A DNA stretch of 64,000 nt, taken from positions 8,855,303 through 8,919,302 of the forward strand of contig NC_087075.1 of the NCBI RefSeq assembly GCF_026151205.1, given 5' to 3'. Origin of the DNA: Bolinopsis microptera. Lineage: Eukaryota > Ctenophora > Tentaculata > Lobata > Bolinopsidae. The number at the start of each line of letters is the position of its first letter. Position 1 is the stretch's first letter. The translations under genes and the position numbers were made by a program. Below are positions 1 through 29,355 of the stretch, in pieces. The notes beneath the pieces were generated by a model. The model was not told where the DNA came from and did not search any database. It saw nothing but the letters and a program-made list of their open reading frames with translations.

Positions 1-29
1 GGAGATCAACAACGCGATATCTTTTCAGA

Positions 30-730
30 ATGCTGGCTAACCTTGAGGAAGTTAAAAGACAGAAGCTGGCATGTATAGTGCTTTTCCTTGACTTCGAAAA
101 GGCATTTGATAGTGTTCATCTCCCATCACTATGTGTCAAACTATCAACTCTCGGTATTCAAGGAAATATTCTTAACGTGCTGAGAAATTTCCTGTTCAAC
201 CGGACGATATGTCTAAAAGTGAACAACTATAAAGGAGAAAAAAGAAATTGTACAATATTTGGATTACCTCAGGGGGCTGTACTATCACCTCTCCTCTTCA
301 TCCTTTACATAGCAAACATGACACACAACACCTGCTACAAATTTGCTGATGACGGTACACTTATGATTTCCTTCGAGAACATCTCCGAATGCCATGAAAA
401 AATGCAGATGGTTTGTGACCACCTCAGCAAGTGGTGCATCAAGAACAAGCTAGTAGTGAACTGTGATACGAATAAAACGGAGGCCATAATCTTGAAAACT
501 GCAGCTTATACCGAAGAACAGAAACCTGCAGAATTATGTATTAATGGGAAAAGCATCAACTACGTCCAAAGCACAAAGGTCCTTGGGGTAATAGTAGATG
601 AAGACCTCAATTTCAAGAAACATGCGTCTCAAAAACTTAAAGAATGCAAAAGAAAGTGGGGATTAATAACAAAATCAACTAACCGCAACTACGGTCTAAA
701 CGTTTACAGCCTCACTCTCCTCCTTAGAGA
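30..730 (+). pseudogene. Jockey-superfamily LINE reverse transcriptase, 5' piece (interrupted copy)
   Basis: This is the middle of a non-LTR retrotransposon reverse transcriptase. The polymerase motifs are visible in order: motif A in LDFEKAFDSVH, motif B in GLPQGAVLSPLLF, and motif C in KFADDGTLM. The left side runs off the window. The right side loses homology near position 728, where the reading frame runs into the 3' end of another LINE on the opposite strand. The missing C-terminal part resumes in the same orientation near 7,620, so this copy was split by a later insertion. Clade assignment (Jockey superfamily in the broad sense) is by motif only. No start codon can be assigned; the ATG at 30 is internal to the domain. 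Confidence 0.85.
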
Positions 731-4900: not shown

Positions 4901-5270
4901 CGTCGATGTTTTGGAAGAGAAGCGATGAAAATTCATTCATTTGATTATCTAGTGCTTTGTTGAATTCCTTGACATTGTACGATACGCAGTTATTTAGTAT
5001 TTGATCTACTTTTATGATAGTGTCATCCACTTCACTACTTTCAATATCACTTAAATTAGTGCATGCAAGTCGAAATGGATTGTAACGAATAACTGCTAAA
5101 TGTACGCACTTGGGACAGTAAAAATCGTCAGATAATGTGTCATTGTTAATGGATATGGTATAGCACTTATGGTGCATTGGGCAGTCGCATTCACAGCATT
5201 CAACAATGAATTGTCCTACGTTAATGAACTTCGCACAGACTAGACATACCTCTTTACTCAGGGGAGTCAG
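1902..5270 (-). CDS. LINE ORF2 protein: PHD finger + endonuclease + reverse transcriptase
   Basis: This is the enzyme ORF of the element. From the first AUG (5,177) it has 1,091 codons. The frame is open further upstream and reads a complete PHD finger that the AUG would cut: CLVC, CCEC, HHKC and CPKC. I therefore place the functional start near 5,270, overlapping the ORF1 stop. An APE-type endonuclease follows (QNIDG, LAETNE, LAGDFNIDL, SHHSPIF). The reverse transcriptase shows YRPVSTL, motif A IDLSKAFDT, motif B GVPQGSCLGPLLF and motif C FADDTNIF. The C-terminal part contains a cysteine/histidine-rich stretch but no clear RNase H. This fits the CR1/L2 group. The frame is intact to the stop at 1,902. 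Confidence 0.88.
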   Translation of the reverse strand: MTPLSKEVCLVCAKFINVGQFIVECCECDCPMHHKCYTISINNDTLSDDFYCPKCVHLAVIRYNPFRLACTNLSDIESSEVDDTIIKVDQILNNCVSYNVKEFNKALDNQMNEFSSLLFQNIDGNKSNFDTFAIESHRLTKKFSIIALAETNEGPESSSLYQLTGYNSFYQNTIPDKKKGTGVALYVCDTLSARVNGNVSHITEHLETLFVAVSSKTSPVTVGVMYRPPSGNVNVALSELSDILDSLPKCSYLAGDFNIDLHDKNSTIVQRYEEILLSKGFFPLISLATHEKPGCKASCIDNIITNDVESIVASGILTDRISHHSPIFQIFDRNLDSSRIDLKYKQYYDYNKPNVKAFLQTLEHDLNNNVIDNFTTFHDIFKDCIDRTCKLETPKCSKRTALNNPWITPDLVGKISYQHELYDKWVKVRKVKCKFGEIENKGGTCQCPICCSKRDKYKKYSDCRRKVKKDRRNAQSKFYGGKFAELHGNSKKTWELINQIRGKRKRQTKPLFTINNEKITNRRVIANEFNKYFVSLASNLNEAYNEIGELVINGIPSIYDYLPKSNTTSIYMHDCTIDEVCKIISELKNGKSSDIPIHVVKVSSRIIAPLLSVLYNECLKEGIFPDDLKIGRISPIYKKENEELLENYRPVSTLAVFGKLFEKIIYSRLYSFFQSQNMIYENQYGFRKNHSTSHALNFSVNYIESCLNKKQHVLGIFIDLSKAFDTISADKLLSKLDNYGIRGNANKLIASYLSNRYQYISVLGEESDKLPVLFGVPQGSCLGPLLFIIYINDLYRATELGKFILFADDTNIFVADECKIKLYERANQILKLVQLYMKCNLLHINIKKCCYIHFKPTNRKSKVEHNEEEHVLTLNNVVIKQVKKVKFLGVIIDDQLKWDAHIRSLNTKLKCESGKICRIRHIIPEKLYKELYYTLFESHLRFGISVWGGLSNNRLEPIFITQKKCVRILFGNREAYLEKFRTCARTRSKDKQKLGSDFYEKQHTKPLFKKNGLLTIHSLFKHTCLLEMFKINKLESPVPLLNLFHRSSRRADRFITPTPSTSFIYQSTKMWNDCRNTASNINFSTSTNLVKSTIKKELLGMQSRYDEIDWCELNFDSNELKF

Positions 5271-7504: not shown

Positions 7505-7620
7505 ACGTTAAAACAAACAGCCAGCAAAAGTCAAAACAATCAGCTGTTAAGGCAACGTGTAAACTTACGGCACCCCTTTGAGGGAATTACGACATACTTT
7601 CCCTGAACTCAAATTATTTG

Positions 7621-8534
7621 TTATATAGCAGCGCTGAAAGTATTAAAGACAATGGTCCTCACTAAACTGTTCTACGCAGCACCTATTTGGCTTCACAAGT
7701 GTCTCAATCAATTTAAAAGCTTCTGGAATAAAATAATTCTAAAAATATCTGGATCAGTCCTGAATCCACATAGGGAATTAACCGAACTTGCTCTCCACCT
7801 CCCACCACTGGATGTGCAACTTGAAGCTCTTTCGGTTAAATTCATGTGCAAAGTACTCACACAAGGTGACAATCTCTCAGCTACACTCTACCAAGTTGAC
7901 GAAAGCAGAATACCAAGCTTTCATGTCTTAACAATGTCACTGAAAAAGTACTTCCTTTGGAAAGAAAATAAGTCACACGGAACCAGAATGATAGACCTAA
8001 CGCAGCAACATTTCAAGGATCTGGCCTATTACACTCAGGCAGACATAATGAGCTACAAAAATAAGATCTGGATTGACAGCATCGAAACAAATCTGCAATG
8101 CAAAACTGTCAGTAAAAACAAGGAGACCAAGATACTCGGTGTGATCACAAAGATCAAAAACAGTGGGCTGCTCCTAAACAAAAAAAAACTTTTTATTCGG
8201 GCACAACACGAGTAAAAATCTGGACAGCCGAATAATGGACTACATTCACGGCAGCTCACCACTCTTTGCGAATATCCAAAAGATCATGGGTGGTGACAGT
8301 GGTGAGGCCTGTCGTTTCTGCAACAGCTTCAATGATTCTCCTGTACACCAGCTCCTATTGTGTCTGGAGGTGCAAGACACCAGTTACCTGCAACTAAAAG
8401 AAGAGCTGGGTGGGGCTGACTCACATTCCTATCTAGATGAAGTGTTAACAAAAAGCAGCACACAAAAAGCATTCATTAGAAGAGTCGAATTTCTTTGGGG
8501 ACAAAATGATGCTCTCCAGGATTTATCCAACTAA
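7621..8534 (+). pseudogene. Jockey-superfamily LINE reverse transcriptase, 3' piece (interrupted copy)
   Basis: This continues the element that breaks off near 728. It reads through the C-terminal part of ORF2, starting with AALKVLKTMVLTKLFYAAPI. It ends with a cysteine-histidine cluster (CRFCNSF...HQLLLC) common at the C-terminus of such elements. A frameshift in the A-run at about 8,180-8,190 separates two open stretches (to 8,215, then from 8,235). The stop is at 8,532-8,534. The rest of the 3' UTR probably reaches about 9,030. Inside it, 8,831-8,940 encodes a short WELPRNTKTDLKRHL segment typical of another LINE ORF2 C-terminus, so a second LINE fragment may be mixed in. Confidence 0.78.
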
Positions 8535-11100
8535 ACTAGAAAGATCATAAAATAAAGACTCTGCAAACATCTCAGAGAAATAATACCACCGTAAAGAATA
8601 AAGAGGGAGGATCCTGGACCCCGAAATCCACCACTTTTCTGTACTTTCAGAGGTACCAATGTGGCAGGAAACCAGGGCTCATGCTGCCGCTGAGCTAAAG
8701 CAGTAGAGGGGATGGTGGCTTCTCTAGGATCTAACACGTCCTGAAGCAGACCAACACTATGTCCCAACGCACTGGTGTTGGGATGTCTGCCCCCGGTGCC
8801 TGCTTGGGTCAATAAAGCAGTCAAGCATCATGTATGTTAAGTTGAGCATTCTCAGCCAACAGATGTGGGAACTCCCACGAAACACCAAAACAGATCTAAA
8901 GAGACACTTAACAACATTGGAAAAATATACTGCAAGCTGAGGTCACTAAGCATCTATGGAAATGTTCATTGGATAGTGAAACAACAGTCTAGCTTAGTCT
9001 CTTTACTCCCCATATTATTATTATTTTTTTTTTAATCTACCTTCCTATACTTTCAACATCATATCACACTTCCCCCACACACCTTCTCACACATTAATGA
9101 CCATATCAGACCTGTATCTAATGTATCTGGAATTTGACGTATTGAAATACCAATTATGACTCTATATCCACAGTTATTCACCATGGATTTGTTTGTTATT
9201 AAATAGTTTTTCATAAATTTTTGGATTTAGATTAATTCGATGTAATGGGTCCAAGTTACTGCGGACATAGTTCACTATGTGTTTACCGTGTTTGGGTGCC
9301 CATCATATTTTACAGATGGGGGCGATATTTTGAACGATTCTATTTAAATATATTCATCTATTGCTGTACTCTGTAAAATTTGAAAAGTATTTAATAAAAA
9401 AAACCCTTCAATGCTACCACTTCAATGATATTTTACATTTTTCTTCTGCCTCTCATCAAATAGCCTTATTGAAAGGAGCTTGAATGTGTTATTTGTAACG
9501 GAGTTTTATATAAACAGGAAACGATGTAACAGATTCAATATATTTTAATGTTGCCATGGGATGGCAAGTCCCCATACATCGTAGTCCGATAGTTTGACTG
9601 CTTCCTAATATACTCCTTCATACATTATATCTAAAAATGCCTGATGCAATGGGTTCCATAAATTGGAACTATCGGAGGTAGCTTAGAAACCAAGACTGTT
9701 TTCAGAATATGATATTCCACATAACTTACTAGTTACTTTACAACAATGAAACACAGGGAACAATCGAACCTTCATAGCTTAATTCATATTTTGAGTCGAA
9801 GCTTAGCAAATATTTCCGCTTTAAATACAGACACAGACAAGAAGACCATTTCAATAGATAATGCAAACAATAATGTACACTAATAAATTCAGTACAGTAA
9901 TGATTAAGCTGCTTAACCATTAACTGTGTGGCAATGCCATTATGGAAAATTAAAAATTAATTTCTTTTACTTCACTAATCACTTCTTATCTTCAAATTTA
10001 ATTTAAAAATATGAAATAAAAATGTTGAGGTCATGATGTTGTCTGCTGTCGCTGTTTTGTGTTTTTGCCTCGCGCACACACATTATGATACTTTCTTAAT
10101 TACTTTTGGTTACTACTACAAGCTTTTTATGCTAAGTTGAGAGTGGACGTTGTCCATCAAAATGCAGCATTAAAGAAAGCATAAAGCTAAGTTATTTACT
10201 TTTTGACGGATGTTACTCGTCTAAATTTCTTCGAAATAGCGCGCGCCGCTTTCTTCTCCAAATGTTGGCCCGATGCAAGTGCTACGAAGTAGCGCGCGCC
10301 GGACTAGTTCATCAACAATGGAAAAATGTACTTTAAGGTTAAATATTTTAAAATTAACCATCGATGCAGTCTGATTTTGATATTAAGTATTACCGAGCGT
10401 GCTAAATCACTCCACATAGCCATGTGTATACGCGTACTGCGCGACGCGCTTGTTTCACAAGTAGAATATCTTTTTATCACGTTGTGACCCCCACGGTCGT
10501 TTCACTATGGTGGAACGTAGAGTTTCTACGATACAGGGGGGCCGCGGACTCGTGCGCGGCGGGTCATACAACATATGACAAAAATATCTTCGAAGATCCT
10601 TTGCCGCCTTCGGCGGTCGCGCGCTACTGCAAGCGAGAGGGCTCTGGTTAGAGCAACTAAATCACATTATATGACACATTGACACTTACTATACCTAGCT
10701 TTCTGGTTTATTGCTCGCTTCGATCCGCTCACGTATGATATATAAGATCAGGAGTACATATTATATATATATATCTCCTAATATTCAGGTTAAGCCTGAA
10801 AAGAACGCCGCGCAGCGCGCACAGGGACTGGTGTGCCAGGTAACTTTATTGCTAAAAAACAATTAGTTGAAAAAGTTACGTGACAATCCAGTGTATAAAA
10901 GTAATTAATCATCATCGAATTATTACATGTTACAAAAACGCAATTGAATTCATAATTTTTGTTAATTGTCTGTTGTCACAGCTTAAAAATTCAAAAGTTA
11001 AAAATTAACAGCCGTTTTTTTGTTGCGAGCTATTTGTACTTTCTCAATTTTTATATTTTACTTGGCGGCGCGCGTCAATTCTTATGCGCGATATTTAATT
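8535..11100. other. Non-genic, repeat-rich stretch
   Basis: I see no supported gene here. The left part is the presumed 3' UTR and tail of the Jockey-type LINE. At 10,195-10,315 lies a dispersed repeat containing GTTACTCGTCTAAATTTCTT and two GCGCGCGCC blocks. It recurs inverted at about 43,130-43,275. Confidence 0.5.
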
Positions 11101-11106
11101 AATATT

Positions 11107-11192
11107 AGTTAATTAGATTGCCAGTACATTGATTGCTACTTCCATGGATATCCATGGAAGTAGCAATCAATATACTGGCAAGCTAATTAACT
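11107..11192. repeat. Near-perfect 86-bp palindrome (foldback)
   Basis: Two arms of about 43 bp meet at GGATATCC (centre between 11,149 and 11,150) with no spacer. Each arm carries GATTGCTACTTCCATGG or its complement, with only a few mismatches near the outer ends. It can form a long hairpin or cruciform. It may be a MITE reduced to its terminal inverted repeats. No protein is encoded. Confidence 0.8.
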
Positions 11193-11684
11193 CTCTATTT
11201 AATTGTACATGAGCCAACTACGGAATAATCATGTCACATCATGTGCATGGCCTGCAATACCGGGCAGCACCGCACATTATTAAATTGTTCTTGCCACCAT
11301 CATTGCGAGATCAGAAAAAAATAAGAAAACTTAAGTTTTTGATTGTTAATTTTAGGGATTAGAAAGCAAAAAAGATTTACAAACGAATTCCTTGTGTTTT
11401 TAATTCACTGAATTTTCCCACTGATTGCAATCAAAGTGGTTCTATTCGTTAGACTAGAACCTTACTTTATCTCGCAAGCTAAGAGTTCTATTAACAAACA
11501 GTTTCTTTCACATCCTCTTATTGTGGAGGATCAAAAGTAATAGTGTGAGCATATTAAACCTTTTGGAAGTTATTACATCGCTACTTCTTAGTTTTGTGAT
11601 GACTGATACATTTTTTATGAATGGCTAATCTTCGTTGCATGTAGCTTCTCGATGTAAATAATTTGTTGTCACATAGTTTCACCT

Positions 11685-11757
11685 TACCTGGAGACCCCAG
11701 GCTATAATGTTCATAAATAGAGATTCGGCGGAATGGCAGGCTGAGCGCCGCCTAGTC
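11685..11757. repeat. Dispersed repeat shared with 43,985-44,075 (inverted)
   Basis: The stretch with ACCCCAGGCTATAATGTTCAT and GGCGGAATGGCAGGCTGAGC recurs in reverse complement near 43,985-44,075, with several substitutions. It is a fragment of an unnamed interspersed repeat. Confidence 0.6.
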
Positions 11758-12420
11758 AATAAAAGTTTTACCAATTTGAGGAGGTTACATGATTCTTTAT
11801 TTGTCTCTGCACTTTGGTTGATCTGTCAATAGTATAATAGTCATGTGGTAAGATTGATAAAATCTTATAAAAATCATAATATAGTCAGTAAGGTTTATCA
11901 ATATTCATAAGTCTTTTTTTCATAAGTCTTTTTTTGCTGCTGGGATGAGTCCTTCTTTATCTTCTATTCTGCTGTTACATGTTCGTCCTATGCTTACTTT
12001 CAGTTCTGTGATGAGTCACTAGGATGGCTGTGAAGCTAACTCTAGTTTTTCTTCCTTTTGTTTGAAATTAGCTCTTGTGGTCTTTTATGAAATCTGTTGC
12101 AGTGATACCACCAAAACAGATTTTTCTGAATTTTAGGCCTTTTTGAAGAAAACATGTCTGTTTTGTACAATATTCCGCCAATTGAATGTTCTGATGGCGC
12201 AAAAAATATTTGGGGGTACCAAATCCTCTCAAGGGGCAGCAAAAAGGAAAAATTTAAGGGAGGAGGGGGGAAACATTAGGCCTGGATTTCTGTCTTTGAA
12301 GGGGCATATTGATCGGTGATTCTTCCAATTTCGGCCATATGACCAATAGCCACAATATTCAATCTGGATCTATCAGATGTGGTCCCTTTGGCCTTTGGGA
12401 TTCAATTCTTCACAGGAAAA

Positions 12421-12508
12421 CAAATTTAACTTTTGGTATTTATTAATAACAATCAAAACATATCATATCATAAAAATAAAGCCGCGCGTTGGTTGACTGC
12501 CTCAGTAA
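12421..12508 (-). mobile_element. 3'-end fragment of the AlkB-type LINE family
   Basis: The sequence with AAACATATCATAT, AATAAA (minus strand) and AAGCCGCGCGT(T/C)GG matches 745-833, the 3' end of the LINE at 745-7,620. Only the last 90 bp or so are alike, as expected for a heavily 5'-truncated copy. The ORFs are absent. Confidence 0.65.
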
Positions 12509-14066
12509 GGTGAATAATTTAAGCTTGAAGGTGCCCTGCCCTCACACGTTGGGAGGTGTAAATATCTCTGTGTATAGCCTCTTGAAGGAGCTCGGCTACA
12601 GTTTTTATCAGTGCTTTTTAAATTTGATTTTCAAATGTCTTGACACCAACCAATAGGTTTCCTGTTATGAAATATTAGCACATGCCACCCCATCGTGGGT
12701 TTACTACTGATAGCAACAAATCAATGAAACAAGAATTTTTTTGTAGGCAGAATGAGGTATTGTCCAATATTTAGTGTCCGACAGACAGGCTTTCTGCTTG
12801 TGTTTAGAATGCCTTGATCAATAAGTTCATATTATGCTTTTTATTTCATATTCTGATACATCGATCAAAATATTTTGTAGGGATTTCATGATTGCGAATC
12901 TCTTTTACTATTCTTTTAGTTTGTTCCTACAATCAATAATATCATCTCCTCTGGTCATCGTACTTTATTCATGGTGCTAATTTCAAATGTTTAACTGAAA
13001 ATGTGCATAGAGCATTTTACAATAGTATCAGATAAAAATAAGCGATGAAATCCGAGTAGGGAGACCTGCATCAAACATAACCGTCATTTGTAATTGAGGG
13101 TCTGCTGACTTTGGCAGTATTGTTTCTTCTCTTTAATGCTATTAATGAAGGAAAAAGTGTCAAACAATTATAAAATATTTCAGCAATGGCCAATTGGCTG
13201 ACTATAAGGTCATGGCCTGAACAAACAATTTTTTTAAATAGTCAAGTGATGCTAAAGCAGAGCACAAACGTGTAATAAGTTAATAGATTAAAAACTGATT
13301 CATGTGATGCATTACGCAGAGCACAGATAAAAATACTGATTCAATGATTAAAATTATAGCTGTGAGTGTCAATAAATTACTGTGTCATAAAAAAAGGAAC
13401 GATGTACACGTGATCTGAGATACCAATATCTCAATACCAAAAGAAACATTCATAGTCCATGGTGGCAGGTATCAAGTTAAACGAAGTTACACTGACTGGC
13501 AATGTATACGATTGCCGTCTCCCTCTCTCACCCCTGACCGCTATCAGGGTGCTCCTGAGGATTGAGAATCTAATCCTGGTGCGCATGTAACACATAATAG
13601 CCGCATAGTCTTCTCCTCTCTTCTGGGATAGTTTTTAGAATACAATTAATGCTATTAATTGTATTCTTCCTCTGTATGACTATGTTATGAATCTTTGTTA
13701 GGTTAACCTTAATCATAGAAATTCCGGAAATTTTGTTGATGTTAAATTAAAACACCAAAGTTTCACCTAACAAAAATGTATCACTAAATCAAGCAGAAAA
13801 ATAAAATTATTGAACAGTTTTACCTTGCAACTGAAAAAGTTGTTTTTAATCATTTACTCTCTTAATCATAGTTTCAATTCTCAAATTTTCAATTTTATTT
13901 ATACATTTACGCTACATAATTTGTGATTGTTCCTCATGAAAGATGTCATTTGTTTTCAACCGAAAATTGGTCTGATGTATTTGCTTGTTATCTTGAAACT
14001 CCATTTTGATTCACTGAATTTTTTATTTTCATTTACTTTCACTGACTTAAACCAATTTAGACCAAG
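12509..14066. other. Upstream region of the DRAM-family gene
   Basis: No gene is supported. A small hairpin (GAATACAATTAAT and its complement) lies at about 13,638-13,666. The promoter and any 5' UTR exon of the downstream gene must lie here or further left, but I see no decisive signal. Confidence 0.4.
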
Positions 14067-17000
14067 ATGGCTCCCCCTCCACATTTGCCTGTACAATGCA
14101 GCAAGACGATGACCGTGCAAGGATTTGGCAGTTTACTGGGATATCTCCCCTTTTTATTGACACTGTTGATAGGGGGAGGTATTGTTATGTGTTATTGTAT
14201 GGCTGTGGCGTATGGTCACGTAGAAGCTGCTTTTCCTTATATCAGGTATTAAGATTTTAGAGTTTAGGATAAACTTCATACTGTTCCTTTTAATTAAATA
14301 GTGTCTCGTAAATTGAAAAGAAGGCCTTCAAATATATTGAAGTCTTTGTTTAGATTAACCAATATAGTTCCTGGAAAATTGATGAATTATTAATTTGGGG
14401 GTTTGAGCACTTTTATTCCGGGGGATTAAAGATCTTGCTGGCTGTATTTTTCTTAAATAACTCACAAGAAAAGCGACCTGCGGAGTGAGGAATGTGGTAG
14501 TTACTTAGGAAAGAACGAATTCGTACACTCAAATTATTTACAGTATTTACCGGGATAACTCTCATCGGAGATCCTTTGATAAATTAAGAGTAAATATTCC
14601 GGAACTATTCCGTAAGACACTGGAAAATACCCCAATAATATGAACAACTAAACTTAATATGATTTACTTTTTCAGTGACACTGGCACGTTCCCTCCAGAA
14701 TCTTGTGTCTTTACTCTATTCCTCAACTGTGCGGCGGTTGTATGTGAGTGAACTCCCGTTTTCTTTAAAATAATAGATCTTCCAACTAGATTTGGGTGTG
14801 TGAACGTCCCAAATAGAACTACTAGCTTAACGTGAATCTGAATGTTTATGTCGTAACTCACAATGGTAAATTGTTAAACACATTATTAACTGTTAAATTT
14901 CAGTACTAGCGATATTCACGCTAAAGTACCTGCACGTAGTACAGTACAATAGACAATGCAGTTCGGCGGTAACAAGAATTAATACTGCTGCTCTCGTAAT
15001 CGGATACGTCGCTGCTTTTGGAATTATGGTAGTGGGTGCCTTCCAGGTTCGTTCATTCCATGAATCAAACTTAATTATATTAGCTTAATCAAGTTTTTAT
15101 CTATATAAATTGTTAACACATAACTGTAGTTATGAACCAAATGATTGAAAATAAATCTCTTTGTCTGTTATATAATCCAAAAATGTGTAATCAAATTTCT
15201 GAAATTTTAAAGCTTAATAAATTTATCATAAGTTATTCAAATAAATGCAGCAGTGGTATGGCAGTAATTTTAAGTCGATTTGAACACTTCGGGTATTTAT
15301 AACCACTGGACCAGTTACAACCTTACACCGTGCGTGCTGCCGAACAAAATCACGCTTAACCGTGTTTCACAATTTTAGAAAATAACCTCGTGTGTTTCAC
15401 ATTTTTAGAAAATAAGTTAAAAAATAGTCACACGAACCTGTCCCGCCTGCTCCCCACCGCTATAAGCTGGACCGGACTTCCTAGAGTGTCTTGAAAGTGA
15501 ACAATGGATATTGTTGGTGTATATCTACTGTTGCAATGTCTATTAGTTAGAATGACGGGACATGATTACATCTGGCAACATGTCAGTATGTAAAGTATTG
15601 TAACAGATCCGTGACACTTTTAATAGTGTAACAAGTACCTGAATCATGCCAAGTATCTGTGTCAGTACTTCTGCGGAGAAAAACCCCGCCGACTGGCATT
15701 CAATTTTCTGTCGCTATATTTCAGTAAAATAAAGTTAAAAACGGAAAGCAGAACTTACAGACTTGGCGAAACCTGCCTTTGTTCCCCTGTATAAATTAGC
15801 ACGTATTGGCTATTCAGTAGTGAAGGGTGGGGCAGGGACCAGTAGCCACATTGAGGGGGAAAGTGGAACGGTATCTTGTGAAGTAACCGGGTGTTCCCTA
15901 CTTGCTTCTAACAGACGTCTTCTTTTCAGGAAACTAACGTATTGGCAGTGCACGTTTTGGGGGCGATGATGGCATTCATTGGAGGTAAGTTTATTTGATC
16001 ATCTCGAGCTGCACCTGCAGTACAAATTCCTTAAATAAGTATGTACTATAAAAAGTGCTCGTCCCTTTGATCTCGAACTTTCTACCTGTATCCCCGGTAG
16101 GGCCGCGTAATTTCTCTAATCACATTAAATTCTCGGATCGGAACATATTTTCATTATTTTGTGTTACAAATTTACAAATATTGTATATTGTATCCAATTG
16201 ACACCAATTTGGGAATTTACCGTTGACTTAAGAGCGAGAAGCGGAGACTCTTCACGTCTAAGTGCATGGTTAGCAAAATCTTTTACAGGCCTCAAAATAG
16301 ATAAATCCCCTTTCTTCTCGACGCTCTGACTCACCACAAATTATGCTGAATAAATCACCAAATTTTTCCAAATTAGGATTTGATCGGTTCTGTTTTCGTT
16401 CATAATAACACTAAGTATGATAACGTGAGGACTGAGGAATACGACGAGTGTAAAATATTCTGTAATCAGTCAAGCTAAGAATCTGTCAACTTTCCCCGAA
16501 AGATTCTCCTCCCATTTTTTCATTTCTCTCCATCTCCTAAAAATTACATTCACCAAAGTAAGTGTCTTGAAAGAACCTTACACGTGCACTCCTTCCCTCC
16601 TTCCGTGAACACATTACGTCTCATATTCTGAATAGGACAATACCGTACGTTTATCCTGTAACTCATTCGTGAAAAGAAAGTTGCCCTGAAAAGAACTCAA
16701 ACAGGAAACTTCCCCTTCCCGCAATACGTGACCTTATTTTGTTAAAAACATTTCTAGGCGTCAGTTCCGAGTTCAGACGTCGGGCAGAACTCCCCTCTCA
16801 ACTTTAGAACACGTGACTAAACAAACCTTTAGAACACGTGGCTAAACCCCCAACTCTCCTCAGGTACAGTCTACATGTTCCTGATTGCATCGCTGGGATT
16901 CCGACGGGACGTTAACTTTGGTGTGGACGAGCGAGGGTACGCCAAGGCTCGACTCTTCATGGCATTTCTCTCCGCCATCAGCTTTATCATCAGTATCCTT

Positions 17001-20000
17001 TTACCGCAAATAAGATAAATAAAACTCACCACGTTTAACACACAGTATAAAATTAGGTGTAGCTAATTGGAAACGGCGGACTATTACCAATCAGCTATTA
17101 AAAAATCTGTTGTCCCGACTAGTTAACAAATTCTCCGACCCCGGAAAAGGGTTCTCACCGTGGCCTCATTAGTGTAGTCGTCTGGTTGTAGTTGAGGTAT
17201 TGTTCCGTCACAACGTCAATTGGTGAAATACCTAGCACTTTACCTGCATTGTTGACCTAATCTACGGTCTGGAATCTCAGTCAGAAGTGGCAATTTCGTA
17301 ATGAGCTCTTCTGAGAAATTTCATGTATTTGCGAGTATTTGAGAAGGTGGAGTGATATGGCGGGTTACGTGCAGTGATATGGTGAAATTGTGCGGAAAGC
17401 GATTGTGGTGCTTAGAAGCGCAAGTGTGAGATAGTATGACAATGATTTGTGGCATACTTGTAATATTCCGGTTAATCTTGGTACTGGGTGGGACTGGTCA
17501 GAACAAATTGCGTGTTACGTCACACACTTTTAGTCTGCACTGTATGTCGTCATTGTCGTCATAAAAATGAGAATAGATAAAAGTGGCGTATGGTTTAACA
17601 TGACATAATGAGAATTTTAGTAGATTTTAAAATGACATACTGAGAATTTGTGAGTAACACTAGAGTAAAAGTGAAAGTGAAACCAGTGTGAGAGAGAAAG
17701 TGAAATGCCTTAACATGTGATAGTTATAATAACAGCGTCCATAGCAAACTCAGTGTGGGAGGCGAGCCCGGATAATCCTAACGCTCTTCTCTGGTCTTCT
17801 AACGACAAGGTGCGAGTAGTGGTATTGAAGTGTGTGATTAAGTGTGATTAAGTGTGTGATTAAGTGTGATATACTATCGAGCTTGAGTGAGTGTTTCTTC
17901 ACATTGATGTAGTCTAACAATTGTCAGGGAGTGATTTTATAGCGACTGCGAAAAGTACTCGTCACCTTTTGCGGGTGCAATGGCCCGGTACGCGTGGCAA
18001 TATTTCATGAACTTGTAAAACTTGAAACTGTGCGAATTAATAAAATTCCTACAATGTTAGTAGATTATCTCTCGTAGATTTATCCAGATTCAAGAAAAAG
18101 ATCCAATTCCAATCTCTAAAATGAATTAGATCTGTCTTGATCACAGTCCCCTGAATACTGAGTAGCAATGTCACACGTGAATGATATTAAACGAAACAGG
18201 GCTAAATCTAATCTCGTTTCCAATAATCTCCAAATCTAACTATAGGGTCTATTCAGCCTACACTATTATATTCTAGTCCGCACTATTACTCTATTCTATT
18301 AAAGTCTGCCCCTCGTAATGATCTGCACCCTGTTTTTGTCCGGGCTCCTGTTCATGAGTCTATTCACGTCTGTTGTACTCAGACTTTGTCGTTAGTGTAG
18401 GCTGAGTACCGTAATTGGTATCACGTTCTGAGTAGTTTCCAGTGTCTGAATTGTAGTACTAATATTGATACAAAATACAAAAATTAGATTAGCATTTAAT
18501 TTGAACGGAGTATGCTTAAGAGTGATTGAATGTATGATTTGGTTGTACAATGAGTACATTCAATATTATACTTAAAGCTGTAAACAATCATGTTTGTTAC
18601 ATGACATGAAATTTGTTTCACGAGGAATATGATTTTAACACAAGTTTTACCATGATACGATAGTCAATAGCACATGATGCATAAAACAGTGGTGAATGTT
18701 TTAAAAGTATGAGGTTGAGTACACAAGTTATATTACATAGTTTCTGGTGTGTTAATGATACATTACATTACATTCATTATTCCGACACAGTATGCCGCCG
18801 CGGGTACATAAATTCAATAAACAGCTTCCATCCAAGCTATTGAAATATGGGGAACATTCCTAGTTTCAAATTGTGTAGCTGCATGGGGTTCTGTTCTGAT
18901 AGCGGAGCACTTGACTGTTATTTATCTCTGTGTATTGAAATTGGACACTAGCGTACAATATCCCAGATAGCTCAATATAAGCTCAAAATAAGTTCCTAAA
19001 GGTACACTTTTCATCTCAGATAGATAGTACATGGTAGAAAAATACATGATAGAAAGTGGAACTTCCAAATCCTTCTCTTGCAAAATTCAAAAGCAGAATA
19101 TTATTTAAAAAATAACCTTTCCTCGTGAATGTGTCACGGATTTAATCTGAAAGCAGCTAAATTTAACAACTTATCCTTCTTTTTGAGGAAACATAAAACT
19201 GGTTTCGTCTCCAGATTTCTCTACTCCTCGTTATTAAATTTGCACATGTGGTCACATAATCAGCCCACGTAACTCCTACAAGATAACATACCCTGACATC
19301 ACTGGTAATTTATTTATAGGGGCACAAAAACACGGGTAATTTATAGTGACTCTGTTTTTATTAAACTAGGGTGGAAAGTATAAGTCTGTTCATGAAAATT
19401 ATTAATAAATCGTTGAATTAGCATAGTTTGATGAATTTAGACATATTCACAAGGGTGATTGTCTGCAAGTTGTTAATTAAAATAAATTGGATAAACACTT
19501 CACAGTTTGGAGGTAATTGTGGAAAATTAATTATGCAGGGCCGCGGGCGGGAACATCAATTAAAATATGAAAATAAGTGTTAACTTATCCCCATAATTTT
19601 AAATTTAGAGCGCGTATTTTTGGCCTTAATCAACACTCTAAAACCACTGAGTAATGTCTGTTAATGTAGAGCATCTAAGTACGTGACTAAACATGTCAGG
19701 CGAAGTAGATAGGAAGTTGAAAGTTAAAGGTTTCTCTGCTGTAAAACAGCCGTCTAAATAGCGGAACTATTTACACTGTTATCAGTGTTGAAATATACCA
19801 AAATTTTAGCCGGAGATTAAGTTTGTCTTCAGCATTTTAAAACTTGGTAGGGCTGTATTTTATATTTGGGCTGTGGTAAGCTGTGTTTATTCTTGAATTG
19901 TGTCAAGAATGAGAAAATTTGTTCAGAATTCAGTCGGAATCATCGACGTGTTAGACCTGAAAGTTAACACCTTAAGTATAATTCTTAGCCTCAAATTTGG

Positions 20001-23000
20001 AATTGTGAATCTGTTTCTCAGACAGGAAACGAGCCTTACAAAAGTTGAAAACATTTAAGTTTAATCTAACATTCGCATTTACATACAAGTTAGTATAATA
20101 ACCAGTTAAATATTTTCAATTAACTGAGTCTAGACATTATGAAGCAAAATGACCATCGGACATAATGACGCTAAACCAAGGATAAGCATCAGGATCCATA
20201 ATAAGGAGCCAGATAAGGAGCCAGGATAAGGAGCCTGGAGCATAAGGAGCCAGGGCATAATGCCGCTGGAAATAAGACGATACACTGCTGTGTTTTGAGG
20301 AACAATTAGAGGCTCAATTTCGTGCAGGAACACTTCTTATACACGCGCAAGGAAAGTGGAAACCCGTATTACATATTATTATGTCTCGTACATCTATCTC
20401 AATTACGTTGGTGATCTGACCGCTAGTCGCCTCCTCAGACCCTAAAAAGCTAAAACACGTCCACCAGAACATACCGTATGTTAGCAGCACTGCCCGGAAC
20501 CCTCACTCCAGACCTCCAAGCTTTGGAGCTCCCAGTTCCCCAGTTTGTAACTGCAATATCAGGTGACCTGACTTTCAAAGGCTCCCCACATTTACCCTTA
20601 ACTTTATGTTACGCATTTTTGCAATCAATTGTGTCCGGGTAAAAGTTTTAACCTGACTTTTAAAGTTCTGGCCAGGTTGGCGGGAGAGCCCGGTTTCGTC
20701 TGTAGTAATGTGTCGGTATTTGGTATCTCTTACTCCGCTCCCACTAACCGACCCATTCACCACAGTATTCTCTCCGCATCCTGGCGTGGGTTTTGGGGCT
20801 TTTAAAATGGGGACGGTTCCGTGTAGACGGCACTGTAGACTAAACTTTGTTTTTAAAATTAAACTCTGTTCTTTTCAATTATGCTAATTTTAAAAGTTGA
20901 AAATCGGATGGGTTTAAAGTACGTTAACGATTATTGTTGGATAAGCATACGTCGAGATACTCATTCTCCGATCACAGTTTTATGAGTTAATAAAATTTTT
21001 CAATTCTCTGCATATTGAAGAGAGATTTTATGTACAATTTGCAAAATTTGTCTCTGAAAAATTGAACTTTACAAAAATAAATTTAATATAATTTTACTGG
21101 AATTTTATATAATTTTACTAGAACAAATTTAATATAATTTTATTCCAAAACACATTTAATTTCCGCTGCTAGCTAACAACGTTCTGTAGAATAATAATTT
21201 TATCGTCCTCCACCACCTCCCCACCAATACAAACAGTCTAGTCAGGCGAAATGTAGGTATTGTTGGCACCGTCCTACCGAAGTCAATGAAATTACTTTAA
21301 TCGCTGCAGTCCCCGAGAATTATTAGGGCTGATGGGCAGCCTGCCTCGAAATAATCGTTCACTGTTCACTTCCTACTAATAATTGTAATCAACTAATCGT
21401 TATCGATACTTCCAGACGAGAGGAAAGATTAAAATTTGGAGTGTGAAGGATTGTGATATAGAAGTGGGGGGATTATGGGGACGAAAGTAGGGATAATTGG
21501 GGATAATTGGGTTGTGTGGGCGTAAAGACGGGGTATAAATCTTAAAACATGTTGCATGTATGTGGGGTGATGTCAGACGGTTAGTTGGGTATTTATCTGT
21601 ATAAATAGAGCGGGATGGATTACATTTTATTAGATATAGCCATTTTGGAAAGGTATAGGTATTTGGAACCAGTATTAATATGGCAATGTTTACATAGATT
21701 TAAGGAGTAATCAGAACTTGAAAGAAGGTTTTAAATGAACATTAATTTCTTATTTCCATTCATTACTCTTGCCGTAATATTTCTTAACAACGCCTAAAAG
21801 CTATCGGAGTTTCTGCATGGTCCCTTGCCCTTTGGGAACCATCCACCGTGGAGAAAACTTACCAAACGTGGAGTTCAGATGACAAGGTCGCTGAACTAAT
21901 AACTTTAATAATGCATTTAATTTACATTTAATGAAAACTAATTATAGTAATAAGCATATGCGCTGAATAGACCTGACTTTCCCTGTGAACGTTATTATTT
22001 GCAGGATTACTTGGTAGGTTTCCGTTAGAATGCATGGCTTATTATAATCAAAGCACAACAATGTTTCGAAATAATACGTCGGCGGCTGTCTTGAATTTTA
22101 ATGACTTGATAAACTTAAGGCATGAGTCAGGCTGCTGGCTGCTGTAGGTAACCACCGCGTCATAAATCAGCCTAGACGCAGCGTTGCATTTCGATTAATC
22201 TTGATTAATTGAGAATTTCCACACCTAAGAGTTTATGTGTTATGAATCTTCAAAAATAAAACTGCTAATTTGACGAAATGTTATTCCCGATTCCCGGGTT
22301 TTTAAAGTGCAAGAGTCCGTATTTACCAACAATATGGAAGCCGTACTTTGGACGGGTACAACCTAAAATCTACCGGTAATATTTCACATATTTCAGATAA
22401 CATTTCACGTATTTCAGATAGTATTTCGCATATTTCAGCACCACAAACAGGTCATTTAAATTCCTGTTCTACAATAGGAGCGGTTAGGTGTGAATATCAT
22501 AGTGTGAACAAACTTTCTATTTCCGTAAAAATAGTAAAATAAGGGATAAGACACCGCAGCAGTGCACCTTTTTTAATGCCAAACGCACAGTCCTGCTTTT
22601 AGGATATTTTAAAATATAAACTTAATTTTGTATCAATCTAAAAGTTAAGGATACGAGCCTCGCAGTCTTGTCCGCAGTCGGAGGAGGTGAGAACCAATTA
22701 GCGTTGTCAGACAATTAATGATAGACTTGTCAGAACAAGCTAACTCCACAAGTTGACAATCAGCATTCAGCAAATATGTCTATACAACTAACAAATATGT
22801 CTCGCAAATTTGCTGTCGTGAATTCCTGGAGCATGCAACACGTGGATACTGTCTTTTGTACATTATTTAATTTCAATGTTAAAGTGTTCACTGTTTTAAC
22901 CTATTCCTGAAAACGTACACCGGAAACGTCCATTGGACTGTAAAGTTTGAAATGAACCTACATTCTAAAATAAGGTACACGTACTCTAGTTGTACACGTA

Positions 23001-26000
23001 CTCTAGTTGTACACGTACTCTAGTTGGACAAACCCTAAAGTTCGACATTGTCGAACCTGGACTCTAATTCAGTTAGAGTGCTTGTCGATCCTAAAATAAT
23101 TCTAGAACACGTTTTAGAAAGAGTTTGCTTAATTTTAGAATTACTGCAGTATGTTCGAGATGAACAAGATATTGTATCCACTAGAGCATTATAGCATTAT
23201 TAGATAATTTAATTGATTACAAAAACAATGCCAAGTTATTGCCATCTTAACTAAACAAAGTGAACATAACGACTGGTATAGCAATTGGTATGTGGCACCT
23301 TCAACACCAGTACGATCACAAACAGCCTCAGCTCTGGAGTAAGAATGATGACGTAAGTCGCCAGTGTGTCTTAAGAGTGTCTTGATCCTGGTCAGGTGTA
23401 GACGGATGTAGTCGCTGCAGCCGCCTAGAAAACCGGGCATATTTTTGTCTTATCACCATATAGACCGCCTAGATTGGCAGCAACTGCCGACGAAAAATAT
23501 TTCAAATCAGCTGAAACAGTCGTAGCAGCGGCTGCATCCTTACGCAAATCATTTTTGTCGTAACTTTTGACCGTAGTTATGGCAAACAGTACACGAATTA
23601 TGAGAAGTGTGGCTTTTGTCAATGAATTTGCGAGTTTTGCTTCTGGTGAAACACAGCGATAACTTTATTATGTGTTGTCTACGTTACAGTGTAAAGTGTA
23701 AACTAGGTGACAGATTCATAAATCTCGTGATTCCCAGTTAGTAACTTAGTAATGAATTTCGTGTGGTAAATTGTTGTTTTAAGTATGATAATATGTGCAT
23801 ATCTTTAGATATCCTGTTATATTTATAACATAATATATTATTCATATATTACGGTTATTACCAAAATGAATGCCTAGTTGTTCTGTAAAGTGTAAAATAT
23901 GGTGAATGCGAACTTTTTGTTACAACACAATACACATATTGTATTATTTAGTTATTTAGGGGTTCCTCGGAACTCACTTGCCCGTGACTGTACTGCACAC
24001 TTTATTTGAAATTAATGCTTAACATAAAAAGATAAAACAATAAAGTCTCATTGGTAGTTGTCGTGAATAAAACTATTGTCTAGAACCGTGCTTGAGAAAT
24101 AATCATTGAATGTAATTACAGCACAAGAATCCCAAATAACGTAATTATTTTCAAGATTAAAACATGAATAGGTTTAATTTTATGAAAGATTTTGCACATC
24201 AGATCGTAGGTAAAACACCAAATTAAAAAACATGTAAAGTTATGTTGTCTTTAACGGAAACTAAAATAGTGATCATAACAACAAAAGAAGCATTTGAATT
24301 GTGGTATTCAGAGCATCTCAATGATGATCGTAAACCTCAGCTCTGGAACAAAAATGATAAGGTTAGTCTACCAGTGAAATGGAAACTTTATACTTAATAG
24401 CACATATAAACAAGTTATATAAGTTATATAAGTTGTATTAACAAGTTATCAACTACTTGACTTATTTGTATTGTGACTGTGACTGAAACTGACCTTGCCA
24501 AATGTGTTCATGCTGAGATGCTATATTGGATTGATTGGAGACATTGTTTGAATACCCGAGTTTGGAATAATAAATCGTAATAAAGTACTCTACTGTGGTT
24601 GCTACTGCGTGTTATATCTTGTTTTGATCGGTGTGTGATCTTTGCTTTTATGCTAAGTCTAGTGATTTCTTCCTCTTTAAATACTCTTTTAATGCTGTTT
24701 CTTCTTAGAAAATCGGGATAGTCAAGTTAAGCTGTGTTCATCACATTAATCATCCAAATTCACAATGACTTAAAATATGCAAAACGTTTCACAATCAAAA
24801 TAATCATTGATTACCAAATTCAACATCGGCCAGATCCAATAATTGTGCATAAAACTGTACAAGTCATGATGACCAATTATTAGCCAACATTCCTTCAGGG
24901 TTGCCATATCCCAGAGGCAGGCAGAGCATCCTCATTCCTCATGCTATCCTTTCATGGGCCATCTAGGTCCAGCCTAGACTCTTAAAAAAACACAAAAAAA
25001 ACCCTAAAGTTATGAAACCTTAACTCCAACACATGTATGACAGCTAGTTGTGTAGCGTGGTATCAGTGGGTCCCATTCGACCCCGATTCAAAGTCCAAAT
25101 TATGGAACGAGCGTGATAAGGTACCTCAATGGAAACGGAGCCCGCATCTCTATGTAGGGTTTATGTGTTGATTGTGTCAACGTTTACTAAGGGCATCCCT
25201 CTGATCAGGGCCAAAAGGAAATCGCGGCATGTACGGAATCGCGATTTTTCCCATTATTTGCGACAAATTTTATGTGTAGTTTAATGTATAGCCTGATAAA
25301 TTACGCGGTATCGCGATTTTTGGCCAAAATAATCGCGAAATCCTTCTGTCCCTGACCCTCTCTTTCCGGATAAACACTACAAAACACGTGTATTTTCCAC
25401 GTGTCGGCGCAGTAGGAAAGGGGATTTGTTGCACGGGGTACATGTTCGATTATAAGCCTTTATGTTTCGTTAAAGTTTCTCAGTGGCATGTTATTTCCTT
25501 CTATAGACACGTGTATTTGTTGTTTGGACTTGGTTCAGTCCAAGAACCATTGAAATGAAACCTTTCATTCGCCATGAAATCTATACCATTTATTTCCGTA
25601 TACGATTTCTCCACTTTTACTAAGTTTTCCTTGTTGATCGGTAATTGGCATGAGTATTGTGACATATTGGGGGCCTAATTTTATTAGAACTTCCGTTTTT
25701 TTCTTAAAATTTAACACTGTGTCGAGGTCGCCAAATTCGATTTTCCTCTGGAAGTCAGATGTTTACTTCTTTACATGTCACCTTTTGCATGTCTGTGTTC
25801 CATGAATTTAGAGTTCTAATATTTCTCATTGAAAAACGCCGGGTAATATATCAAATTATTCCCAACCGAGGTGGTATCTCCATGTTTTTTACGGTTTTAA
25901 GAAAAAATCATTAGATCACGTTCAAAGTAACCAGTTATAACACCCGTATAACAACTTGTTATATCCAACGTTTCTTATCAGTTATTCTACAATCAATAGC

Positions 26001-27873
26001 TGATAAGAACTGAACAAGTTTGTACTAGGCGCACCCAAGTGTGCATTATAATATCAGTCTTAACACAATCTGCGGTTACCTACTGATAAAATCTTGGTCG
26101 CTATCACCCAAAAAACGCTCAGATCAAATTTCTTTCTCCATAATATTACCGCATAATTGACCCTCTAATTTATAGGATTCTCCCACAATCATTCCTGGAT
26201 ATGTTCTCCCATAATCACGACAAATTCCCATTAATGAGATTACAACCCATGGAAATCCTGACCAGTAAACTTGGACTACGCTCTAATAACGGTCACGTTT
26301 TAGTGTGATAAAAGAAAAACCGTGACCAGACATCGCATAAAATCATTGGGAAGAAATGTTGCAAATTCACCTCGTGTTTTTTCCTTCCGCTGGAGTTTAG
26401 TAATATTATTTACGTCATCTTATGCAAAACCGAGTTGTCAGCCCTCATTTTCCGACCCTGCACGAAAATTTAATAAGGTAGGTAATAAGGTAATATATTA
26501 TGACGGGGTAACATGGTGGTGTGGTGAATAACATGTATTTAAGAGGGGTGAGTAATATTATAAGTTTAAAAGCAGGCCAATATGTCATAGTAGTAAACCA
26601 GGCTGATAAGTAAATAAGTATCAAGTAATACGTCATGGTACGTGTTACTGGTGCTGGTTTTCCAATTTCTGCAATACTTTCGGGAGATTAATTTTAATTA
26701 AACTATTTCTAAAACCTGTCTATCAGAAATTTTGGCTAATTAAACCGCAGGCGCTGGTTGATTACCACCTGCCTTTTTGGTGATTAGATAACTTAATTTA
26801 CAATTTTCTCTGGATACTTGAAGCATGCGTGCAGTGGTCCGTGGAGATAAATCCTGAACAAACATAGGAAATTGAGTTTCTCTTTGAACTTGTTGCAATC
26901 AAGGTTAACTGATGAGTATTTTGGGCACTAATTCCCTCTTCAAGTTTCAACAATCAAGCTCATCATGTTTATAAATCTAATCTGTAATTACCGGGAATTT
27001 CCACTCCAATGAGAATATTATGATTTTTACTTTCTTCTAGCGGAACTCAAACATATTATACCAATTTCAAAGGAAGGCGCATTCAAATTACCCCATAATT
27101 ATCACCTTTCTTCTCGGAACTTCAGTGCACAGGAAGTGAAGCATTTCAAAACAAACCCTTGAACTCTCAAAGTATATATAGTTCTATCTATCGATTATTC
27201 AAAATTTAAAATGTTTGGTTAAAAAAGTAGACTTATTTTGTCAGACAATCCAGTTTGGATAAGACCTGCAAGTCAGTGTCATCTCATCAAATTACTATAT
27301 CTTGGCACGGCTTCTCGCGCCAATCTGGTGCCGCTTTGGAATGTTTTTTGAGTCTCATAAAATAGTCTTGCGTTTAAAACTCATAAACTGTCGTTTTTTG
27401 CATGCTCTACAGCTCTACCTGTTTGCTGGATGGATGAACTGTGAATGAAACAAGATGAACGCCCATGGCTCGTCTCGCTCGATATATAACCGGGCTAGAT
27501 TTAGGGCTAGTTTTAGGGCTAGTTTAAAGTGTTATGTCTAGTTCTACTGATTGTTAACTGTTATTCCTGCATGTTTTCTGTCTCCAATTGGTCAGATCAT
27601 CCGTAAATATCTCTTGAAACGCCAAAAACAATGCATGAACGATTCCAAAACAATACTAAAACCGTACTCATCATACTTGTAAATACTTGTAACTTCGCAG
27701 ACTGAAGACAACTCAAATCTAAGTATGCTAAGTATGATTAATATAATTCTTTACAGGGATACAACATACATCTGGTGGCTACAGCATTTGAGTGGGTCAT
27801 GGCCCTGGACCTGCTTGCATTCCTCATGACATTCTCACAGGAGCTTCACATTATTCAGCTACAAGTCGTTTTG
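14067..27873 (+). CDS. DRAM/Frag1-family multi-pass membrane protein with alternative exon 6
   Basis: The exons join in phase: 1 (14,067-14,245), 2 (14,676-14,743), 3 (14,904-15,046), 4 (15,930-15,984), 5 (16,864-16,992), one of several exon 6 versions, and 7 (27,757-27,873). The protein has about six membrane helices. Family signatures are PYISDTGTFPPESCVF after TM1, ETNVLAVHVLGAMMAFIGG in TM4, and HLVATAFEWVMALDLLAFLM in TM6. DRAM proteins are lysosomal or plasma-membrane proteins linked to autophagy; the Frag1/Sfk1 relatives act at membranes. The exon 6 versions encode the segment between TM5 and TM6, predicted to face the lumen or outside. Introns range from 160 bp to over 2.5 kb; the exon 6 array spans 10.8 kb. 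A possible last exon lies at 29,902-30,132. Which DRAM paralogue this is cannot be told. Confidence 0.85.
17736..17809 (+). CDS. Alternative exon 6a of the DRAM-family gene
   Basis: The acceptor is AACAG/CG and the donor is AAG/gtgcg. The 74-nt exon (2 + 24 codons) takes the single A left by exon 5 and ends in phase 0, as exon 7 needs. The peptide starts SIANSVWEASPD and ends LLWSSNDK. It encodes the TM5-TM6 loop. It is the nearest version to exon 5 and, on order alone, the ancestral candidate. Confidence 0.8.
21801..21886 (+). CDS. Alternative exon 6b of the DRAM-family gene
   Basis: The acceptor is AAAAG/CT and the donor is AAG/gtcgct, a weaker match to consensus. The 86-nt exon (2 + 28 codons) is in the required phase. 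It encodes IGVSAWSLALWEPS and ends YQTWSSDDK. The closing WSSDDK parallels WSSNDK of exon 6a. It is the longest of the set by three to five codons. Confidence 0.7.
23282..23352 (+). CDS. Alternative exon 6c of the DRAM-family gene
   Basis: The acceptor is TATAG/CA and the donor is GAC/gtaagt, a strong site. The 71-nt exon (2 + 23 codons) keeps the phase. It encodes IGMWHLQHQYDH and ends PQLWSKNDD. It has the same length as exon 6d and about 10 of 23 identical residues, plus a shared nucleotide run CCTCAGCTCTGGA, so these two are the most recent duplicates. Confidence 0.8.
24291..24361 (+). CDS. Alternative exon 6d of the DRAM-family gene
   Basis: The acceptor is a tandem AAGAAG, so the exon may begin at 24,288 or 24,291. 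Both keep the frame and differ by one residue. The donor is AAG/gttagt. The 71-nt version encodes FELWYSEHLNDD and ends PQLWNKNDK, aligning without gaps to exon 6c. Confidence 0.8.
25044..25120 (+). CDS. Alternative exon 6e of the DRAM-family gene
   Basis: The acceptor is GACAG/CT and the donor is AAG/gtacct. The 77-nt exon (2 + 25 codons) keeps the phase. It encodes SCVAWYQWVPFDPD and ends KLWNERDK. The LWN.RDK ending matches exons 6c and 6d. Confidence 0.78.
25206..25354. mobile_element. Short MITE with hAT-like CAGGG termini
   Basis: The ends read CAGGGCCAAAAGGAAATCGC on the left and the matching CAGGGACAGAAGGATTTCGC on the opposite strand, about 80 % alike. The element is 149 bp with further internal inverted pieces around TCGCGATTTTT. 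CAGGG ends suggest a hAT-type non-autonomous element. The expected 8-bp duplication is not clear. It lies 86 bp past exon 6e, within the gene's intron. Confidence 0.6.
26401..26477 (+). CDS. Possible further alternative exon 6f (weak)
   Basis: An open stretch between TTTAG and a strong GTAGGT donor has the right phase at both ends (2 + 25 codons) and ends KFNK. It lacks the conserved tryptophan four or five residues before the end, and its composition does not resemble the other versions. A chance phase match is possible. Confidence 0.3.
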
Positions 27874-29355
27874 GTAAGTTAATATTTTGAAACTTTGATT
27901 TGGAAAAATTATAAAGTTCCTTTTTGTACGGCAATAACCTGTTTTATAACTGTCTTCTGTTTGGTTTAAACAATCATTGCTGTATAATTTGGGTCTTATT
28001 CGGGTCTTATTGTCCTATTTTTCTAACTTTTACATTATACATAGTTTAGTAAACTTATAACTAGATAGCGTTAAAAACACCACAGAGTTAAAATGTAATA
28101 ATTCTCCCAAATAATAATATGTTAACATATCACAGCACATAAAAGACGGTCTAGACAGGACAATCTCACCACTTTTAGTGTCCATCTTAACAAAGAAAAG
28201 TTATTATTTATCGTTTAAAGAAAACAAATTGATTGATTGTCATGACAGATTAGGAGAAACTCAACCGGAGAAAATTACCACCAGTTAAATAACTAGAGCA
28301 TTTGTCAGAGTCCTACGGGTAAGATTTGTTTGAGGGGCGTTTTGAAGGTTTTACTCAGTAAGCTAATACATGTGGTGATGTTGTGGGCGGTGGTACACTC
28401 AATTAAAATGAATTAATTAACAATGAATGGAACAATATCGGTCATTTATTTTAGAAATTAATCTGGACAGCAATGTTATTTTAGTGGACACACAAACGTG
28501 TATTGCCTCCCTATCTGATATATGTAGTATGTAATATGTAGTTATTTATGTGGGGATGGGTGCCAACAATTAGGTCCCATGCCACCACCTAGGAGAACCT
28601 CGAGTATGATAACGTGCAAACAGGAAATTGTAAATAATAATAATATTCGTTTTATTATGGCTTCTTGTCTGCTGGAAACGTTTTAAGTGCTAGTGAGCAC
28701 TTACCATTTATTATTTACCCTCCAAACGTTGGCACTGCAGCCCTGCAGGCCTTGAGAATAATAATCAAAACCATGCCAAAGTCACGCACATACCAATTTC
28801 ATCAAAAGAATCCCCGAAAATAGCATATGGCCTCGTCTAAATGAATCTGATTTTAATTTCACCCGCAACTGGTATTTTTAGCAGGAATAATTTCAGACAT
28901 CTTACCCAACTAGGCCAGACTGACCTACATTTTTAGCTCTTTGAAAACTGTTTTTAGTCGTTTGTTCCACAGTTGGATAAGGAGAGCATGTGATTAACCC
29001 CTTTCAATAAATCAAGGCTAGTTTAAACGAGGAATTATACCAGCAGCAGTTTACATGGGATTAAAATCGTAAAATGACATCAATAGTCTATATATAATAT
29101 ATTCATCTTCCATTTAATTTGTTTTAGGAGCAACTTTCGTGATTTATGGCTCAGCGTAAGAAGAAACCATGGTATCTTTTCAAAAACTCCCGCCTAAAAT
29201 TCCTAGCTGATCCTGTTTTAAAAGCAAACTATGAGCAACTCTAGATTATCCTAATTTTACTGCCGGAATGTGTCGATGGCAGAACGTCGGCAAAGCTGCA
29301 ACAGAGCGGCGGCAGTACTCCGCCAGTACTACGGCAGAACTGAGACTGTACTAGC

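Follow-up and report, generated by a model that had tools for sequence, protein, structure and literature searches.

Five predicted mutually exclusive exons with differing splice-site classes on their two sides in a DRAM-like gene

A Frag1/DRAM-family gene in the window

The window, the whole 64-kb stretch of DNA that was analyzed, carries on its forward strand a spliced gene in which all assigned exons are read in the + direction. Coding exon 1 (14067..14245; MAPPPHLPV...FPYIS) was placed by its translation and splice sites, and the Frag1 match begins at residue 25 of the product. It is followed by exon 2 (14676..14743; DTGTFPPESC...), which keeps the frame and has U2-type sites, by exons 3 (14904..15046) and 4 (15930..15984), which also keep the frame, and by exon 5 (16864..16992), which encodes the first part of TM5 and ends in phase 1 with a single A. 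Exon 7 (27757..27873; GYNIHLVATAFEW...) encodes TM6 and has a U2-type acceptor. A putative last exon (29128..29142; EQLS and stop) was placed with low confidence by its pyrimidine-rich acceptor and in-phase stop; it is plausible, and one of several such candidates. Between exons 5 and 7 lie five versions of exon 6, referred to here as 6a to 6e. When exons 1-5 and 7 were used as tblastn queries in the window, no second match with E <0.1 was found among the matches listed.

The earlier note had assigned the gene to the DRAM/Frag1 family, and this assignment is borne out by the Pfam profile PF10277 (Frag1/DRAM/Sfk1), which matched all five isoforms, spliced with the exon starts given below, at 141.5-148.2 bits, where the curated cut-off is 30.3, and over profile positions 3-218 of 220. 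With one exon 6 and the putative last exon, the spliced product would have 260-265 residues. Six membrane segments are indicated by Kyte-Doolittle peak groups centered at about 24-48, 73-89, 112-132, 138-153, 182-198 and 229-246, where peaks were merged by eye and groups three and four lie close together. On the basis of hydropathy, the segment encoded by exon 6 comprises the end of TM5 and the TM5-TM6 loop, which we take to lie on the lumenal or exterior side from the known topology of the family. The gene is likely to encode a DRAM/TMEM150-like six-helix membrane protein and to contain five mutually exclusive exons. The differences between its isoforms would fall on the end of TM5 that faces the lumen or the exterior and on the TM5-TM6 loop. 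The claim that a mutually exclusive array alters this part of the protein is well supported by sequence.

Judging from the spliced gene and the LINE elements, the window looks like animal DNA. A LINE-like element at 1902-7507 (- strand) is made up of two adjoining ORFs. One, of 746 aa, matches a 2OG-Fe(II) oxygenase and, weakly, a GDSL lipase; the other, of 1132 aa, matches a reverse transcriptase and, weakly, a PHD finger. Further reverse-transcriptase ORFs lie at 46676-47833 (- strand) and at 54695-56008 (+ strand), the latter split over two ORFs. Additionally, a repetitive ORF at 63026-63406 (+ strand) contains many copies of a GKICS unit, and an RGG-rich ORF at 49740-50363 (- strand) matches no Pfam family up to E 0.01. 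The 64-kb window gave no match in Rfam and tRNA scans, a solved-structure search gave nothing beyond one chance match (E 1), and two stretches fitted a pattern in viral contigs, neither of which codes a relative.

Five related versions of exon 6

Exons 6a (17724..17809; IIITASIANSVWEASPDNPNALLWSSNDK), 6b (21801..21886; TIGVSAWSLALWEPSTVEKTYQTWSSDDK), 6c (23261..23352; MNITTGIAIGMWHLQHQYDHKQPQLWSKNDD), 6d (24270..24361; MIITTKEAFELWYSEHLNDDRKPQLWNKNDK) and 6e (25044..25120; TSCVAWYQWVPFDPDSKSKLWNERDK) measure 86, 86, 92, 92 and 77 nt. The description of five AG..GT-flanked stretches that enter in phase 1 and leave in phase 0 holds for all of them, as every length is 2 mod 3 and every version is open after the A of exon 5. 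The starts of 6b and 6e stand as in the earlier note, whereas those of 6a, 6c and 6d, placed there at 17736, 23282 and 24291, should probably be moved upstream by 12, 21 and 21 nt to 17724, 23261 and 24270, by the rule that the exon begins after the first AG that follows the likely branch point. These starts give peptides of 29 residues for 6a and 6b and 31 residues for 6c and 6d, they put a tryptophan at residue 12 in each of 6a to 6d, and three of the peptides then share similar beginnings (IIITASIANSVW, MIITTKEAFELW and MNITTGIAIGMW). The tryptophan agreement is the more independent support, because the branch points themselves dictated the choice of starts. The Pfam score rises with the upstream start from 141.4 to 148.2 bits for 6a and from 146.0 to 148.1 for 6d, and it drops for 6c from 148.2 to 143.4, a loss of 4.8 bits that counts against the correction.

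In order to measure the kinship of the five exons, a profile of the nine residues at the exon end was built from four exons and scored on the held-out fifth, giving 18.6 bits for 6a, 15.0 for 6b, 22.7 for 6c, 27.1 for 6d and 13.4 for 6e. The best control reached 5.0 bits with the five-exon profile among 2,354 AG..GT candidates taken from the opposite strand of the intron and, on either strand, from 1-14000 and 28001-64000. Within the intron (+ strand), the array donors rank as the top five of 211 open in-phase candidates, the next one scoring 2.5 bits, and the same nine-residue end profile found no sixth copy of exon 6 on this strand. All five exons keep a W...DK/DD ending, in which 6c has DD in place of DK. 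In a tblastn search with 6a as query, 6d (E 0.009), 6c (E 0.024) and 6b (E 0.046) stood above noise and 6e was at noise level (E 1.6), so that the kinship of 6e rests on the end profile and the architecture of its sites. Together, these results confirm at the level of sequence that the five predicted exons are related and not alike by chance. At the DNA level, donor-anchored ungapped identity is 61% for 6c/6d, 50% for 6a/6d and 35-44% for the other eight pairs; flank identity (22-43%) overlaps that of most exon pairs, and only 6c/6d and 6a/6d lie well above it.

The earlier note had extended the array to 26477, where none of its listed exons ends. An open in-phase AG..GT stretch at 26401-26477 (+ strand; IILFTSSYAKPSCQPSFSDPARKFNK, donor GTAGGT) may lie behind this range. 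Inserted as exon 6, it gives a Frag1 score of 146.9 bits; it was rejected as a further exon 6 with an end-profile score of -4.6 bits and no U12-like branch point. A gain in Pfam score was also rejected as proof of exon identity, since five decoy peptides gave 133.6-146.9 bits and the form that skips exon 6 gave 132.3, against 141.5-148.2 for the real exons.

Splice-site classes around exon 6

The array as such agrees with the earlier note, which did not include a minor-spliceosome donor at exon 5. The donor that follows the final A of exon 5 (16993..17001, + strand) reads GTATCCTTT (also as GTATCCTT and GTATCCTTTT) and matches at 8/8 positions RTATCCTT, quoted as the U12 5' splice-site consensus (PMC10853781). 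It is the sole match to RTATCCTT on the + strand of 14001-29200. The longer RTATCCTTT has one match on both strands of the window against 1.96 expected by chance; the bare motif is not rare, and the telling point, as far as the predicted exon boundary is concerned, is that its single copy lies exactly at the end of exon 5. Exon 5 has A at position -1, a base disfavored in phase-1 GT-AG U12 introns (PMC7367187), and this counts against the U12-type reading.

Upstream of the five exons, U12-like branch points were located on the + strand at 17708..17714 for 6a (CCTTAAC, branch A at -11), 21782..21788 for 6b (TCTTAAC, -14), 23245..23251 for 6c (TCTTAAC, -11), 24249..24255 for 6d (CTTTAAC, -16) and 25018..25024 for 6e (CCTTAAC, -21), where an optimum branch-to-acceptor distance of 11-13 nt is given in PMC3584512. 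These sites were compared with the published consensus TCCTTRAY, requiring the branch A to lie 9-30 nt upstream and taking as acceptor the first AG after the branch A, with AGs within about 8 nt of it ignored. Exons 6a, 6b, 6d and 6e have one mismatch and 6c has two. Among the 106 non-array open in-phase acceptors of the intron, none has one mismatch or fewer and 17 have two, and the 12 of 574 AGs of the region with at most one mismatch include the four array acceptors. The constitutive acceptors of exons 2, 3 and 7 also have two mismatches, and those of exons 4, 5 and putative 8 have more; 6c therefore does not stand out by this test.

A pairing-based pattern, YYTTRAY, was written after the array sites had been seen, and it occurs at 5/5 array acceptors and at none of six constitutive acceptors (exons 2-5, 7 and putative 8). 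It was found at two of the 106 non-array in-phase acceptors and at 15 of the 574 AGs of the region, five of them being those of the array. Taking base rates of 2-3% and allowing each donor its possible acceptors (4, 2, 2, 5 and 2), we estimate the probability of finding it at all five array acceptors at about 5e-7 to 3e-6. The stricter YYTTAAC occurs at 6/574 AGs of the region, five of which are the array acceptors at their corrected positions, and at 0/6 constitutive acceptors. The sixth, at 20666, was rejected because the peptide there is unrelated. The longest pyrimidine runs are 4-6 nt at the array acceptors versus 4-10 nt at constitutive acceptors 2-5 and 7, a weak discriminator when used alone. 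CTTAAC is also usable as a U2 branch point, which counts against a U12-only reading of these sites.

On their downstream side, the exon-6 donors and the exon 7 acceptor look U2-type. The donors of 6a to 6e match the U12 consensus at just 3-4/8 positions. In four of the five copies the exon ends in AAG before the donor, an ending that is frequent before U2-type donors. Against GTRAGT, the donor of 6b (gtcgct) matches at 3/6 positions and those of 6a and 6e at 4/6, a weak to middling U2 strength that counts against the U2-type reading of these donors. The exon 7 acceptor lacks the YYTTRAY branch pattern. By these sites, each exon 6 lies between introns of different class, with a U12-like acceptor and a U2-type-looking donor. 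A 20-nt inverted repeat with 85% complementarity (17799-17818 with 18376-18395) lies over the 6a donor and could mask it in RNA.

Probable exclusivity by splice class and its meaning

We consider it likely that exclusivity is built into the splice-site classes of this five-exon array, with its U12-type front and its U2-type back. The intron after exon 5 would be removed by the minor spliceosome, which would join the U12-type donor of exon 5 only to U12-type acceptors, namely those of 6a to 6e. For the U2-type donor of the chosen exon 6, the only possible partner would then be a U2-type acceptor, which exon 7 provides and a following exon 6 does not. As a class hybrid, exon 6 would join exons 5 and 7 and not another exon 6, and exon 5 could not join exon 7, as skipping would pair a U12 donor with a U2 acceptor and be disfavored. 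The result would be exactly one exon 6 per transcript at any copy number. All five copies would be used, and the choice among them may be made, as one example, by tissue factors acting by exon definition.

Frame breakage had previously been held to forbid the joining of copies. This does not follow from length alone, as the summed length of four copies is once more 2 mod 3. When the sequence itself is read, only the single-exon forms give a full ORF, which makes 5/32 subsets taken in genomic order with skipping included, corrected starts and the short last exon at 29128 assumed. The frame is a back-up filter and is not what stops two copies of exon 6 from being joined. Rare splicing errors would shift it, providing a second filter.

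Of the other explanations, the one that survives best is that just one or two copies are functional and the remainder are decaying duplicates, which we regard as unlikely. The weak donors of 6b and 6e and the DD ending of 6c would fit such decay, as would an exon-exon DNA identity (35-61%) that overlaps the flank values in most pairs. However, all five copies are open, in phase and provided with the conserved ending and a branch point, and it is unlikely, by inference, that such features were kept by chance after this divergence.

It is slightly less probable still that exclusivity is achieved by Dscam-like competing RNA structures, one docking site pairing with selectors that adjoin the individual exons. 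The inverted repeat over the 6a donor is in line with this explanation, and a scan of 895 24-nt tiles against five 500-nt flanks, with one shuffle per tile and for a single genome with no covariation, provided one candidate docking site, at a coverage that may let a real site escape notice. For the tile at 23401 and the downstream flanks, the weakest of the five pairings reached -20.8 versus -20.3 kcal/mol for the best shuffle, and the sum -118.2 versus -112.7 kcal/mol. This tile was also the best among the shuffles, so that composition explains most of its pairing. Real and shuffled tiles otherwise showed the same distribution, with mean sums of -68.5 versus -68.2 for the upstream and -69.9 versus -69.3 for the downstream flanks, and in the upstream flanks the best weakest-of-five value was -18.9 for real and -19.3 for shuffled tiles. 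Docking and selector structures would, moreover, leave the U12-type sites unexplained. Least probable of all is that splicing does not enforce exclusivity and that frame-breaking multi-exon and skipped products are removed by nonsense-mediated decay, which would fit the small number of subsets that keep the frame but leaves the unique perfect U12 donor and the five U12-like branch points unexplained; such decay could act as a second layer.

Exclusivity by splice class, as proposed here, has counterparts in known pairs of exons. The mutually exclusive exons 6a/6b (7a/7b) of the JNK genes MAPK8/MAPK9 and exons 11/11a of TMEM87A/TMEM87B are described, in excerpts of the sources, as U2/U12-flanked pairs (PMC8329584, PMC3584512, PMC6717393). 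As proposed for this array, they have one U2-type and one U12-type flanking intron, so that exon cannot be joined to exon. According to these excerpts, the JNK and TMEM87 clusters have two exons, the 3' site being U2-type and the 5' site U12-type, whereas the present array has five exons, belongs to another family and shows the opposite polarity, with U12-type 3' and U2-type 5' sites. Dscam-type arrays likewise choose one exon from a set of more than two related ones (PMC6071210, in part). The earlier comparison with Dscam is apt as regards the outcome, a single segment made in one of several versions; the mechanism we infer is different. No docking or selector signal stood out among the 895 tiles, and the splice classes differ on either side of the exon. 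In the passages concerned, U2/U12 incompatibility is stated to be confined to clusters of exactly two exons in a 2018 paper (PMC6071210), and a human survey attributes 5 cases, or 0.79% of clusters, to spliceosome incompatibility, with 629 clusters given in a figure legend (PMC5740500).

A minor intron is known from a mammalian DRAM gene. The human DRAM2 exon boundary at c.517/518 presumably falls at the residue of the exon 5/6 junction described here, on the basis of an alignment by eye with the DRAM2 sequence. This boundary lies in phase 1 of codon 173, as deduced from the variant c.518-1G>A (PMC9266529). A minor intron is present in mammalian Dram2 (PMC6717393, PMC10853781), whose transcripts are alternatively spliced around it (PMC6717393). 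Mammalian DRAM2 and the present gene share, by these partial accounts, a DRAM protein, a U12-type intron (probable in the present gene) and a phase-1 boundary, which in DRAM2 may or may not be that of the U12 intron. In contrast to the present gene, no exon array is mentioned for DRAM2 in excerpts of PMC6717393, PMC9266529 and PMC10853781. Three human U12 3' sites, including that of DRAM2, were reported to take U2-type donors too, and incompatibility is accordingly not absolute (PMC10853781, in part). Such dual use makes the joining of one exon-6 copy to another conceivable.

The array may have originated by tandem duplication of an exon situated between a U12 and a U2 intron, in which case the copies would have been exclusive from the outset. 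We lean, with some reserve, towards the more general view that tandem duplication of an exon with a U12 intron on one side and a U2 intron on the other yields copies that are mutually exclusive from birth, without any new regulatory element and in arrays of any length, with this DRAM gene as a five-member case. Literature searches over main articles, few of them from subscription journals, returned among the matches listed neither a U12-type array exceeding two exons nor a DRAM/TMEM150 gene with mutually exclusive exons. The known incompatibility of U12 and U2 splice classes is here likely scaled up to five exons. If this is true, the limit of exactly two exons would be wrong in principle, as a class-hybrid exon would scale to any copy number, and the minor spliceosome would gain a direct role in protein diversity. 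Tandem exon duplicates would then be predicted to be unusually frequent beside minor introns, genome-wide.
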